From Candidatus Sungiibacteriota bacterium (lineage in GTDB: Bacteria; Patescibacteriota; Minisyncoccia; Sungbacterales; HO2-52-23), in NCBI GenBank assembly GCA_016196115.1, contig JACPYI010000009.1, positions 1 through 36,964 of the forward strand: DNA of 36,964 nucleotides, in the 5' to 3' direction. Made by a program: the position numbers and the translations under genes. Shown here piece after piece: positions 7,057-9,944 of this stretch (position 1 is its first letter; each line of letters opens with the position of its first letter). The notes under the pieces were generated by a model. The model ran no database searches, was not told where the DNA came from, and saw nothing but the letters and a program-made list of their open reading frames with translations.

Positions 7057-7085
7057 TTGTCTCGTGGGCATTTTTGCGCTATACT
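7057..7085 (+). promoter_or_regulatory. Strong promoter of the tRNA-Lys / GIY-YIG locus
   Basis: TTGTCT (7057-7062), a 17-nt spacer and TATACT (7080-7085) form a near-consensus promoter. Transcription would start near 7092, about 15 nt before the first tRNA-Lys-like segment at 7107. This is the spacing expected of a tRNA gene promoter, so it was probably the original promoter of tRNA-Lys. It now drives the broken tRNA segment, the GIY-YIG gene and the intact tRNA as one transcript. Confidence 0.65.
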
Positions 7086-7106: not shown

Positions 7107-7162
7107 GCCTCCATAGCTTAATGGTAAATCCGTCAGCCGACGGACTTTTAAGCAGATGACCT
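7107..7162 (+). pseudogene. Broken tRNA-Lys 5' portion carrying a palindrome
   Basis: Positions 7107-7128 match the acceptor and D-arm of the intact tRNA-Lys at 7413 with one change. Then TCCGTCAGCCGACGGA (7129-7144) replaces the bases GCAGTTGC that form the end of the D-stem and the 5' anticodon stem. CTTTTAAGCA follows, and similarity ends at TGACCT (7157-7162). The GIY-YIG start codon is formed inside this tail. It cannot fold as a tRNA. Confidence 0.8.
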
Positions 7163-7422
7163 TCTACGTATACGCAATTTACAATAATAAAGGGAAAGTC
7201 TATATTGGTTATACTGTCGATATAGAAAAACGTTTGGCTCGGCATAATAACCTATCGCCACATAAAAAGTCATCATTTACTTATAAACAAGGGCAAAACT
7301 GGCAACTGGTATATTCTGAAGAGCATTCCACACGGGAAGAAGCCAGAAGACGCGAACAACAGTTAAAAAGTTCCCGAGGAAGAAATTTTATCAGGCAGAT
7401 GATAGAAAAGTTGCCCCCATAG
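7156..7422 (+). CDS. GIY-YIG nuclease-domain protein nested between tRNA-Lys sequences
   Basis: An 88-aa single-domain GIY-YIG protein (UPF0213/YhbQ type). The signature reads YVYAIYNNKGKVYIGYT at residues 4-20, with the conserved Arg in EKRLARHNN near 26 and the metal-binding Glu in TREEARRREQQLK near 70. Its ATG and second codon come from tRNA-Lys-like sequence. Its last four codons and TAG stop (7411-7422) come from the acceptor of the intact tRNA-Lys, overlapping that gene by 10 nt. Free-standing GIY-YIG domains include mobile homing nucleases and repair enzymes. The position here suggests a mobile gene that inserted at the tRNA and regenerated a full copy downstream; that is inference. 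Confidence 0.9.
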   Translation: MTFYVYAIYNNKGKVYIGYTVDIEKRLARHNNLSPHKKSSFTYKQGQNWQLVYSEEHSTREEARRREQQLKSSRGRNFIRQMIEKLPP

Positions 7423-7483
7423 CTTAATGGTAAAGCAGTTGCCTTTTAAGCAATTGACCTAGGTTCGATTCCTAGTGGGGGCA
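7413..7483 (+). tRNA. tRNA-Lys (TTT)
   Basis: Folds as a full cloverleaf: acceptor GCCCCCA/TGGGGGC, D-stem GCTT/AAGC, anticodon stem GTTGC/GCAAT with loop CTTTTAA (anticodon TTT), T-stem CTAGG/CCTAG with loop TTCGATT, discriminator A. CCA is not encoded. Its first ten bases are shared with the end of the GIY-YIG gene. Confidence 0.95.
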
Positions 7484-7674
7484 TATCGACGGACCATAGC
7501 TTAATGGTAAATCCGTCAGCCGACGGACTTTTAAGCAATTGACCTAGGTTCTCCGTCAGCCGACGGACTAGTGGGGGCATATCGACGGACCATAGCTTAA
7601 TGGTAAATCCGTCAGCCGACGGACTTTTAAGCAATTGACCTAGGTTCTCCGTCAGCCGACGGACTAGTGGGGCA
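7484..7674 (+). repeat. Two 96-bp tandem tRNA-Lys-derived units broken by 16-nt palindromes
   Basis: The units run 7484-7579 and 7580-7674 and are nearly identical. Each keeps the tRNA-Lys blocks CCATAGCTTAATGGTAAA, CTTTTAAGCAATTGACC plus TAGGTTC, and CTAGTGGGG. Between the blocks tRNA bases are replaced by TCCGTCAGCCGACGGA, at 7512-7527 and 7552-7567 in the first unit and 7608-7623 and 7648-7663 in the second. The 5' acceptor half is replaced by the half-element CGACGGA (7487-7493 and 7583-7589). Neither unit can form a tRNA. The replacement, rather than simple insertion, is unusual. Confidence 0.9.
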
Positions 7675-7916
7675 CCACGTTGGAAAAGTCAAAGAGTTTT
7701 GGTTCGCCTCGCTTTGACCGATTCTGTCCACTACACTGATCCAACCGGACAAAATCGCTTTTTAAACTGGAAAGCACCTCAAAGACCCTTTCCGGTCTGC
7801 GTTTCTGTAATGATACAAAAGTGTATTATTTCGGAAACGCCGTCTTTTTTGCGCCAAGTCGTAATTCAAATGCTCTTATTGCAACTTTCCGGCCTAGCTC
7901 GTAATAAGCGCCGGGC
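7675..7916. other. Intergenic stretch without a recognisable gene
   Basis: About 240 bases between the tRNA-derived repeats and the fic promoter. One rightward frame is open (7699-7920, 73 codons), but its translation shows no recognisable pattern, has no ribosome site and runs into the fic promoter. A weak CCGGC/GCCGG stem near 7890-7915 has no T-tract. I see nothing supportable here; it may be degraded remnants of an older gene. Confidence 0.5.
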
Positions 7917-7945
7917 TTGATTTATTCGTTACAATCCGCTATAGT
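7917..7945 (+). promoter_or_regulatory. Promoter of fic
   Basis: TTGATT (7917-7922) and TATAGT (7940-7945) are separated by exactly 17 nt. The predicted transcript begins near 7952, only about 14 nt before the ATG at 7966. This rules out the upstream TTG at 7945 as the start codon. Confidence 0.65.
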
Positions 7946-7965
7946 TGATATATCGGATTAAACAT

Positions 7966-9060
7966 ATGGCAAATAACAACAAATTAGACCGCCGACTGGA
8001 ACAGTTACCCGCTGAAGTCTGGTCAAAAATAGCGAGAATTGATGAGTTAAAGGGGCAATGGATCGCCGGAGCGCAACTCTCGCCTCAAGTATTAGGTCGT
8101 CTCAAACGATCTGTTTTGATTACTTCAACCGGAGCATCAACTCGTATCGAAGGGGCGAGGCTTTCCGATGAAGACGTGGAAAAACTCATGCGAGGCATTG
8201 ATATCCAAAAATTTACTGACCGTGACAAGCAGGAAGTCAAAGGATATTACGAGTTGCTTGAGAATGTGTTCAATTCTTGGAAAAGTTTGAAATTCAGTGA
8301 AAGCACTATCCAACACTTCCACAAAGAACTCCTGAAATATGTAAAGAAGGACGAAGACCATCGAGGCGATTACAAAAAAAGAGAAAATCAGGTGCAGATG
8401 ATAAACGCCGCAGGCGAATCGGTTGGCGTGTTTTTTGATACTACACCGGCATATCTTGCGTCCAAAGAAACACAGGAACTGGTTGAGTGGACAGAGCAGG
8501 CTCTCGCGGATAAGAAGCATCATCCGCTTCTTATCGTGGGCGACTTCCTTGTGGAGTTTTTGCAGATCCATCCATTTCAGGATGGTAACGGCCGTCTGAG
8601 CCGTGTGCTCACCAATCTTCTTTTATTGAAAGAGGGTTATTTGTACATGCCCTACGTCTCCCATGAGAAGATAGTTGAAGATAATAAGCCGGAGTATTAT
8701 CTCGCGCTTCACCAGAGTCAAAAAACATTTTCCGCCAAAGGCGGATCCGCCTCAGGCGGAAAGACCACCCCGGACGAAACCATCATCCCGTGGCTGGATT
8801 TTTTCTTGACTATTTTCTTGAAACAATCGAAAATGGCCATCGATCTTTTGTCCAAAGAAAACATTCAACGACTGCTTACGCAAAAACAGCTCGCTGTTTG
8901 GAATTATCTCCAAAAAGTTGACAGTTCCACACCGCGCGAGATTTCCGAACAGACAAAAGTCGCTTATCCGACCGTTAGGCAAGGGATCGATAAACTGATG
9001 CGGCTCAAAAAGATTGAGCGCACCGGCCAAGGCCGTTCAACGAGCTATAGAAAGTTATAA
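7966..9060 (+). CDS. Fic-family AMP transferase with C-terminal winged helix
   Basis: A 364-aa Fic protein. Fic enzymes transfer AMP (or related groups) from nucleotides to target hydroxyls. The active-site motif HPFQDGNGR is at residues 202-210. The inhibitory motif S-x-x-x-E-G is S58-E62-G63, located N-terminal to the core, so this is a class II self-inhibited Fic. Residues 300-364 form a winged-helix DNA-binding domain (TPREISEQTKVAYPTVRQGI), as in Fic/DOC-wHTH regulators. Residues 256-265 (SAKGGSASGG) are encoded by two tandem 15-nt palindromes at 8731-8760 inserted in frame. The gene lies in the accessory island between tRNA-Lys and tRNA-Ala. The target is unknown; no separate antitoxin is needed for class II. 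Confidence 0.93.
   Translation: MANNNKLDRRLEQLPAEVWSKIARIDELKGQWIAGAQLSPQVLGRLKRSVLITSTGASTRIEGARLSDEDVEKLMRGIDIQKFTDRDKQEVKGYYELLENVFNSWKSLKFSESTIQHFHKELLKYVKKDEDHRGDYKKRENQVQMINAAGESVGVFFDTTPAYLASKETQELVEWTEQALADKKHHPLLIVGDFLVEFLQIHPFQDGNGRLSRVLTNLLLLKEGYLYMPYVSHEKIVEDNKPEYYLALHQSQKTFSAKGGSASGGKTTPDETIIPWLDFFLTIFLKQSKMAIDLLSKENIQRLLTQKQLAVWNYLQKVDSSTPREISEQTKVAYPTVRQGIDKLMRLKKIERTGQGRSTSYRKL
8731..8760. repeat. Two tandem 15-nt palindromes in frame inside fic
   Basis: TCCGCCAAAGGCGGA (8731-8745) and TCCGCCTCAGGCGGA (8746-8760) lie head to tail and total 30 nt, so the fic frame is preserved. They encode the low-complexity peptide SAKGGSASGG. They share the TCCGYC...GRCGGA pattern with the palindromes in the tRNA-Lys locus and at 30376-30390. 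Confidence 0.85.
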
Positions 9061-9095: not shown

Positions 9096-9944
9096 ATGAA
9101 AAAGCAATCAAAAAATAAAGCGATAGCAATTTTTGAAGGCCAAAAAATCCGCCGTTACTGGGACGAAGAAAAAGAGCTTTGGTATTTTTCTGTAGTTGAT
9201 GTCGTGGGAGCATTAAGCGCAAGCGACAACCCGAGAAATTACTGGAAAGTGCTAAAAAGCCGCCTAAAACAGGAAGGCAGCGAGGTGGTTACAAAATGTA
9301 ACCAACTGAAAATGCGGGCTCCGGACGGCAAGTATTACCTGACTGACGCGGCGGACACCGAGGTTATACTCCGACTCATCCAATCCATCCCGTCCCCCAA
9401 TGCCGAGCCGTTCAAGCTATGGCTGGCGCGCGTGGGGTACGAGCGGCTGGAGGAGACGGCCGACCCGGAACTCGCCATTAATCGCGCCTTAAAAACCTAC
9501 TTGCAGAAAGGATACAGTCCAGAGTGGGTAAATCAAAGGTTAAAGAGCATAGAAATTCGCAAGGCGCTCACCGATGAATGGGAAAAGCGCGGCGCGAAAG
9601 AGGGACTGGAGTTTGCCATTCTTACCGATGAAATATCCAAGGCGTGGGCAGGGCTCTCGACAAAGGAGTATAAAAATCTTAAAGGGCTGAAGAAAGAAAA
9701 TCTGCGGGACAACATGACGAATCTGGATCTGGTTTTAAATATGCTGGCCGAAACCGCGACTACGGAGATTTCGCAAAAACGCGAACCGGGAGATTTCGAG
9801 CAAAATAAGCAAGTTGCCCGAGAAGGCGGGACCGTGGCGGGCAACGCCCGCAAAGAAATTGAATCCAAAACCGGCAACAAAGCTATTACCGGCAAAAATG
9901 CCAAAAGTCTGCATAGTAAGAATGAGCCCAAAAAATTGAAATAA
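9096..9944 (+). CDS. Bro-N domain protein (phage-antirepressor type)
   Basis: A 282-aa protein with an N-terminal Bro-N domain: AIAIFEGQKIRRYWDEEKE and WYFSVVDVVGALSASDNPRN near residues 9-50, then YLTDAADTEVILRLIQSIPS near 87-106. Bro-N domains bind DNA and occur in phage antirepressors and in baculovirus BRO proteins. The C-terminal half (AEPFKLWLARVGYERLEE, then a Lys-rich helical tail) resembles the DinD/antirepressor arrangement seen in bacterial homologues. A small broken ORF begins 1 nt after its stop, as in an operon. Chromosomal copies in CPR genomes are common and of unknown role. The location between tRNA genes fits a mobile or prophage-derived origin. Confidence 0.85.
   Translation: MKKQSKNKAIAIFEGQKIRRYWDEEKELWYFSVVDVVGALSASDNPRNYWKVLKSRLKQEGSEVVTKCNQLKMRAPDGKYYLTDAADTEVILRLIQSIPSPNAEPFKLWLARVGYERLEETADPELAINRALKTYLQKGYSPEWVNQRLKSIEIRKALTDEWEKRGAKEGLEFAILTDEISKAWAGLSTKEYKNLKGLKKENLRDNMTNLDLVLNMLAETATTEISQKREPGDFEQNKQVAREGGTVAGNARKEIESKTGNKAITGKNAKSLHSKNEPKKLK

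Follow-up and report, generated by a model that had tools for sequence, protein, structure and literature searches.

Small free-standing GIY-YIG nucleases encoded beside tRNA genes are known from SegB of T4 and T6, which spreads the tRNA region (PMC13096335, PMC2988022). As a homing endonuclease, the T4-type SegB cuts within tRNA genes and drives their amplification in tandem (PMC13096335), and cutting at a distance from the insertion site has been described for GIY-YIG homing enzymes (PMC13096335, PMC2988022). In fungal mitochondria, endonuclease elements bring a substitute for the gene end that they displace, while the native end stays on; in the mobile ORFs of Allomyces and Glomus, one case of which is GIY-YIG, the gene is broken, a working part is supplied and a native remnant persists (PMC3630166). 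GIY-YIG insertions have also been found in rRNA genes of the CPR, that is, again in structured-RNA genes, where they are not intron-like and often lie at stem-loops, and the paper that reported them placed GIY-YIG outside homing (PMC11270868). Finally, dispersed short perfect hairpins, sometimes in RNA genes, are known as mitochondrial double-hairpin elements and RHEs (PMC2800124) and as bacterial REP-like palindromes.

The locus described here, found in a genome of Candidatus Sungiibacteriota (contig JACPYI010000009.1; the whole stretch of 36,964 nucleotides that was analysed is referred to as the window), has something in common with each of these systems and differs from each. SegB is a phage gene, and the arrangement in which each tRNA has its own nuclease and a regenerated copy is not seen with it; nor have hairpin-interrupted tRNA remnants been described for it. 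The fungal mobile ORFs are mitochondrial and concern protein genes and their C-termini, with no junction hairpin described (PMC3630166), whereas the cassette presented here supplies a whole tRNA. The mitochondrial hairpins and the REP-like palindromes are bound neither to a single tRNA position nor to a neighboring nuclease gene. The CPR insertions are in rRNA rather than tRNA, and the paper mentions neither tRNA nor palindromes (PMC11270868). We found no published description in the literature on GIY-YIG with Patescibacteria or CPR tRNA genes, and this phylum-wide type of cassette is apparently unreported.

A broken and an intact tRNA-Lys around a GIY-YIG gene

The features of the locus are collected in Table 1. 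The gene for a small GIY-YIG nuclease (P0001) is located between a broken and an intact copy of tRNA-Lys, with its ATG inside the left remnant and its stop, the TAG of CCATAGC, inside the intact tRNA. This gene was absent from the preliminary description of the locus, as were the recurrence across Patescibacteria and the variation of the hairpin site with tRNA and nuclease clade, all of which are dealt with below. What that description had concentrated on, the two 96-bp units (7472-7663), was confirmed letter for letter: they are 100% identical to each other and keep three tRNA-Lys blocks (CCATAGCTTAATGGTAAA, CTTTTAAGCAATTGACCTAGGTTC and CTAGTGGGG), together with four full copies of TCCGTCAGCCGACGGA and two half copies CGACGGA. 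The bases of the intact gene displaced by the 16-mers are GCAGTTGC (7435-7442) and GATTC (7467-7471). The left remnant (7107-7161) has only the first of these swaps, 16 bases for 8, and we could confirm that it is the same swap at the same tRNA position (7129-7144). The 96-bp tandem also supports the proposal of one event that was then duplicated. The term "16-nt palindrome" has to be amended, in that the stem is perfect and the sequence is not fully symmetric: the 16-mer forms a hairpin whose stem has 6 bp and whose loop is AGCC.

Table 1. Features of the tRNA-Lys locus (positions in the window)
Feature	Coordinates	Strand	Basis
Putative promoter of sigma-70-like type (TTGTCT-17-TATACT) preceding the broken tRNA copy	7057..7085	+	consensus scan only
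Left tRNA-Lys remnant: positions 1-23, hairpin, anticodon loop plus ~10 nt	7107..7161	+	alignment to intact copy
Hairpin TCCGTCAGCCGACGGA in place of tRNA positions ~24-31, left remnant	7129..7144	+	
GIY-YIG nuclease ORF P0001, 88 aa	7156..7422	+	Pfam PF01541, E=1.4e-16
Intact tRNA-Lys (TTT)	7413..7483	+	ARAGORN; Rfam 78.2 bits
96-bp repeat unit 1, beginning within the 3' end of the intact tRNA	7472..7567	+	
Half hairpin CGACGGA replacing the 5' acceptor strand, unit 1	7487..7493	+	
Hairpin replacing positions ~24-31, unit 1	7512..7527	+	
Hairpin replacing positions ~57-61 (T-loop/stem), unit 1	7552..7567	+	
96-bp repeat unit 2, identical to unit 1	7568..7663	+	
Half hairpin CGACGGA replacing the 5' acceptor strand, unit 2	7583..7589	+	
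Hairpin replacing positions ~24-31, unit 2	7608..7623	+	
Hairpin replacing positions ~57-61, unit 2	7648..7663	+	
Last 3' tRNA fragment CTAGTGGGGCA, end of cassette	7664..7674	+	

The five copies of TCCGTCAGCCGACGGA in the window (starting at 7129, 7512, 7552, 7608 and 7648) are all on the forward strand, and the exact sequence is absent elsewhere in the 842-kb, 39-contig genome. Allowing up to two mismatches, the window contained 10 matches against a mean of 0.02 in dinucleotide shuffles. The sole tRNA is that at 7413-7483. ARAGORN and Rfam (even at E<=10) called none in the modified copies, and a functional tRNA containing the hairpin was rejected on these grounds. A CRISPR-like or guide-RNA array was also rejected, as the units within one genome are identical and there are no variable spacers. 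Judged from its sequence, the putative promoter in front of the broken copy is probably the one that originally belonged to the tRNA-Lys.

The nuclease gene is under purifying selection (dN/dS 0.19 against the copy in a genome of the same genus), and the catalytic residues are kept, with Y6, Y16, G18, R26, H30 and E67 invariant in ten diverse cassettes. The protein matches a PHROG homing endonuclease (E=2e-7), and PADLOC gave a weak homing-endonuclease match and nothing else. It lacks a separate DNA-binding domain, which counts against the homing reading given below. Its nearest PDB sequences are the UPF0213 proteins 1zg2 and 1ywl (E=6e-5), which likewise consist of a single small GIY-YIG domain and which, to our knowledge, have not been described as tRNA-linked mobile genes. 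No self-splicing intron was found around the ORF, tRNAs being the only Rfam matches in the window, and a group I intron with its endonuclease was therefore rejected for the window. So was a tRNA-integrating element of the tyrosine-recombinase type, the GIY-YIG gene being the only ORF found between the copies; the left-hand duplication, moreover, involves the 5' half of the tRNA, whereas the 3' end would be expected for an att site. A type III toxin-antitoxin system was discarded as well, given that the protein is GIY-YIG and not of the ToxN family and that most loci have a single remnant.

Some further observations concern the edges of the cassette. The stop codon of the nuclease is often inside the intact tRNA, in the window (7413-7422) and in many other cassettes, so that RNase P processing should leave a non-stop nuclease mRNA, possibly a built-in limit to expression. 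Just past the cassette, GGGGCACCACGTTGGAAAAGTCAAAGAGTTTT (window 7669-7700) has high-identity copies in other families, one of which (in G080) sits directly behind a tRNA match, and it is perhaps another tRNA-linked repeat. Genes with Fic and BRO-N domains follow directly downstream (window 7945-9060 and 9096-9944).

Recurrence at tRNA-Lys and an element-free allele

We searched 85k genomes for a D-arm followed by a TCCG-hairpin and then an anticodon loop. The 43 loci retrieved were 42 from Patescibacteria (Parcubacteria and Microgenomates) and one spurious match in Nitrospira. In the 42 loci the hairpin replaces the same tRNA positions, and all are remnants of tRNA-Lys except L055, which is tRNA-Glu-like (L085, first taken as "Glu", is a tRNA-Lys with a mutated anticodon). 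The hairpin stems are perfect, of 6-9 bp; 17 spellings were counted, to which the spurious match contributed one. When any 10-26 nt were allowed at the place of the hairpin, in 380 genomes, this letter-free pattern again gave hairpins, including a different one, TCAGGCTTAGCCTGA, two unrelated matches aside. Viral contigs gave no match to the exact junction or to the general pattern, and we have rejected a phage origin on this basis.

A GIY-YIG ORF was found at 200 nt or less in 33 of the 42 loci, always on the same strand; ca. nine of the 42 tRNA-Lys loci had no such gene nearby, which counts against the selfish cassette proposed below. Left remnants were present in 36 loci and right remnants in 14, and several genomes have tandem units (L053, L062, L066, L079, L085). 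G001, a genome of the same genus as that of the window (its contig matches JACQRW010000015.1, Candidatus Sungiibacteriota), shares the layout of the window, left remnant included, at 89% identity; its broken copy carries TCCGTCGGCTGACGGA, and it has a single unit where the window has two. The presence of this layout in a diverged genome indicates that the structure is older than the split and is no product of the assembly.

An element-free cognate allele exists at the same place in another pair of genomes of one genus. In G209 the tRNA is accompanied by five hairpin units and a GIY-YIG gene, and the flank upstream of this tRNA is conserved in G232, where the tRNA-Lys is whole (GGTAGA-GCAACGGC-CTTTTAAGCCGATGGTCGGGG-GTTCG). 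The matching place in G209 reads GGTAGA-TCCGCCAACTGGCGGA-CTTTCAAGCCGATGGTCGGGG-ATCAG, followed by the ORF. In other words, GCAACGGC has become TCCGCCAACTGGCGGA with both flanks kept, an exact replacement of 8 bases by 16 seen in one pair and at the left junction only, because the contig of G209 ends within the array. The exchange had been proposed to be a replacement and not a simple insertion, and this is what the empty site displays.

Two further features were noticed at or beside these tRNAs. In L013 (1390-1450) a tRNA-Lys remnant has a 28-nt palindrome in the D-loop, GTTAAAAGCAAACAATTTTGCTTTTAAC, and no adjacent GIY-YIG gene was seen. In L110 and L035 the 3' half of a tRNA, located downstream of the intact one, is followed by an inverted copy of its T-arm (GTGAGGGACTCGAA / GTCAGGACTCGAA), a second rearrangement that recurs beside these tRNAs.

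Cassettes at other tRNAs and the position of the hairpin

Protein searches that were blind to the hairpin retrieved GIY-YIG cassettes at many tRNA types. The window protein (55 genomes) and a Tyr-type protein (238) gave tRNA-Val, Met, Gln, Asn, Tyr, Ser, Lys, Thr and others, among which the Tyr-type search accounted for Tyr, Ser, Lys, Gln, Thr and others; a closer homologue, from the clade of P0001 (380), gave Asn, Lys, Ile, Met and Gln. The restriction to a single tRNA type (Lys/Glu only) that the first pattern suggested is thus rejected. The design is shared, with a hairpin-interrupted tRNA remnant, the GIY-YIG gene, an intact tRNA and often a second hairpin-interrupted remnant. In its full form the left part runs from tRNA position 1 through the hairpin site X to ~45-55 and is followed by the ORF, and the right part consists of the intact tRNA, a linker and a tRNA from ~8-14 through the same hairpin at X to the 3' end, although the order of the parts can be permuted. 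The closer homologue was positive in 28 of the 380 genomes, and by our own reading of the printed flanks about 28 of 30 loci were linked to a tRNA (15 Asn, 7 Lys, 3 Ile, 2 Met and 1 Gln), nearly all of them with a hairpin in a tRNA remnant. Hairpins upstream of the ORFs were stronger when a tRNA followed than when none did (Mann-Whitney p=0.005).

The hairpin is not at the same place in all of them. In the Tyr cassettes it is at the anticodon arm in five of five genomes, again as we read the flanks of the Tyr-type search, with CCAGACTGTAAATCTGG turned into CCCCGCTATAAGCGGGG; a typical Asn remnant reads TAGCTC[TCCGCCAGCTGGCGGA]GGTAGAGC, or has the entire D-arm swapped, and the Ser cassettes typically have double hairpins in the anticodon loop. 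The earlier suggestion that the palindrome targets tRNA stem positions holds roughly for tRNA-Lys, Val and Thr (~24-31), but elsewhere the D-arm, the anticodon arm or the anticodon loop is affected.

The hairpin site follows the nuclease clade, a relation that is partly confounded with tRNA type. On the nuclease tree, in which few forks are well supported and whose tRNA-Lys part was gathered with a pattern that itself fixed the hairpin site, the site needs 9 changes; shuffles needed 21.6, and none of 200 came as low. A single tRNA-Lys, that of L080, contains two nucleases of two clades with two different hairpin sites, the distant one behind a D-loop hairpin and the P0001-like one behind a 24-31 hairpin. 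The remnants are interrupted at a fixed site and the adjacent intact tRNA is uninterrupted. A recoded rescue tRNA was rejected as a general rule, since around the site the intact tRNA mostly has the same bases as the remnant; recoding is clear in some loci only (e.g., L092).

The tRNA-Asn of three cassettes also carries a group I intron (L174:1772-2030, L197:1761-2022 and L185:1176-1451, the last on the reverse strand). This intron is a separate element, and there are then two kinds of mobile element in one gene. A related GIY-YIG ORF was seen after a tmRNA gene in L118 (917-1327).

Possible explanations

The anatomy, its recurrence, the exact swap at the empty site, the relation of hairpin site to nuclease clade and the purifying selection on the nuclease are observations; how they came about can be explained in more than one way. 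We favor, with belief and doubt in about equal measure, a selfish nuclease cassette that targets a tRNA gene and brings a working tRNA, with the hairpins marking the target site. A free-standing GIY-YIG endonuclease gene would have entered a tRNA-Lys gene, leaving the original as remnants with the hairpin at the endonuclease target site (~24-31 for the clade of P0001), and the cassette would carry, or would have regenerated, one complete and functional tRNA immediately after the nuclease gene. The protein would cut uninterrupted tRNA genes, repair would copy the cassette into the cut gene, that is, homing, and the hairpin would keep the remnants, as homing arms, from being cut. The two 96-bp units may have arisen from the right-hand remnant by local tandem duplication. 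The letters of the hairpin probably stem from a dispersed and possibly mobile palindrome family of Patescibacteria. The cutting of tRNA genes by SegB and the replacement of gene parts in fungi make a homing-type cassette the most economical reading. In its favor are the recurrence of the swap, the outcome of the hairpin-blind searches, the clustering of hairpin sites on the nuclease tree, the empty site, the hairpins in left as well as right remnants, and the selection on the nuclease with its catalytic residues. However, the intact tRNA usually keeps an uninterrupted site, so that the homing model leaves self-cutting unexplained. A much broader version can be offered tentatively, in which a phylum-wide cut-and-rescue family exists, each clade attacking one site of an essential tRNA, installing a hairpin and supplying a working tRNA, with hairpin and nuclease forming one mobile system that would also be present elsewhere in the genome as ORF-less palindromes.

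If the targeting cassette is real, a widespread selfish element of Patescibacteria, organisms with tiny genomes and lean tRNA sets, targets essential tRNA genes and is hard to lose, since it holds the working copy. This would account for many hairpin-broken tRNA pseudogenes in the phylum, give a function to part of its abundant small GIY-YIG genes and provide a natural parallel to engineered home-and-rescue drives, besides being a clue to how short palindromes move in bacteria.

The best surviving alternative, which we nevertheless consider rather unlikely, is that the hairpins are independent mobile palindromes (REP- or MITE-like, comparable to the fungal double-hairpin elements and GC clusters) that land in dispensable tRNA remnants, the GIY-YIG gene being a neighbor or a mobilising factor. 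It draws strength from where the hairpin letters are found. The notion that the palindrome is confined to the locus holds for the exact 16-mer only; its family, TCCGYCNNNNGRCGGA, is scattered through the same genome and its relatives. Members lie in terminator loops and in REP-like repeats, in the latter apparently in place of GCGAAGC. The tRNA hairpin of G498 is in that genome's own dialect, TCCGGCNNNGCCGGA, other GIY-YIG ORFs are flanked by perfect inverted repeats CCCGTTAGAGAT, and short palindromes with the same ends (CCGTTAGAG) and no ORF occur in 31 of 384 genomes of the same class, with no match in the controls. These observations are a hint, and no proof, that small GIY-YIG genes and palindromes travel together. 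Yet random landing fails to explain one fixed position in 42 tRNA-Lys loci, the fixed positions per tRNA type and nuclease clade, or a hairpin in essentially every remnant.

A role of the hairpin in the leader of the nuclease mRNA, either tuning translation or stopping the tRNA-derived leader from folding as a tRNA, appears distinctly unlikely to us. The distances would suit it: in most tRNA-Lys loci 10-34 nt (median 24) separate the end of the hairpin from the start codon, and in other tRNA types the two are near each other as well. The D, anticodon or T arm is always broken, and RNA hairpins are known to control the translation of T4-type GIY-YIG genes (PMC2988022). Nevertheless, the position of the hairpin is constant with respect to the tRNA more than to the start codon, and right remnants contain it too, as do loci that have no downstream ORF.

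The broken copies could also be functional RNAs, e.g., decoys or antitoxins for a tRNA-attacking nuclease in the manner of type III tandem-repeat antitoxins, a possibility that we hold to be very improbable. Identical tandem units of 65-96 bp do lie beside a small nuclease gene (L066, L079, L085 and the window), and perfect stems are kept, with compensating changes between genomes, but most loci have a single remnant, the remnants vary in length and order, the nuclease is missing from some loci, and the RNA of the 96-nt unit folds just modestly better than shuffles (z -1.9). An artefact of assembly or binning, the worry of the preliminary description and one that a 39-contig genome with short tandem repeats might raise, is practically negligible against a diverged same-genus genome with other hairpin letters and dozens of independent assemblies, those with the 42 Patescibacteria loci included.

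Apart from these questions, the dispersed repeats have some features of their own. In the genome of the window, repeats of ca. 90 bp (L045-L050, position 1501) have the form GTCATTCTGA...GATCCTTC...CAGGATGAC, and in them GCGAAGC has apparently been swapped for TCCGCCAGTTGGCGGA, an exchange like that in the remnants but outside tRNA genes. Intergenic GIY-YIG mini-elements are bounded by the inverted repeats CCCGTTAGAGAT/ATCTCTAACGGG in L121, L127, L129 and L135 (about 1450-1760), and by different ones in L125 (CCCTGTGAAATA) and L124 (CTACTTCAAA). The palindromes with no ORF are 22-46 nt long, include a conserved 46-nt form and are MITE-like (e.g., G001:C15:4298-4322).
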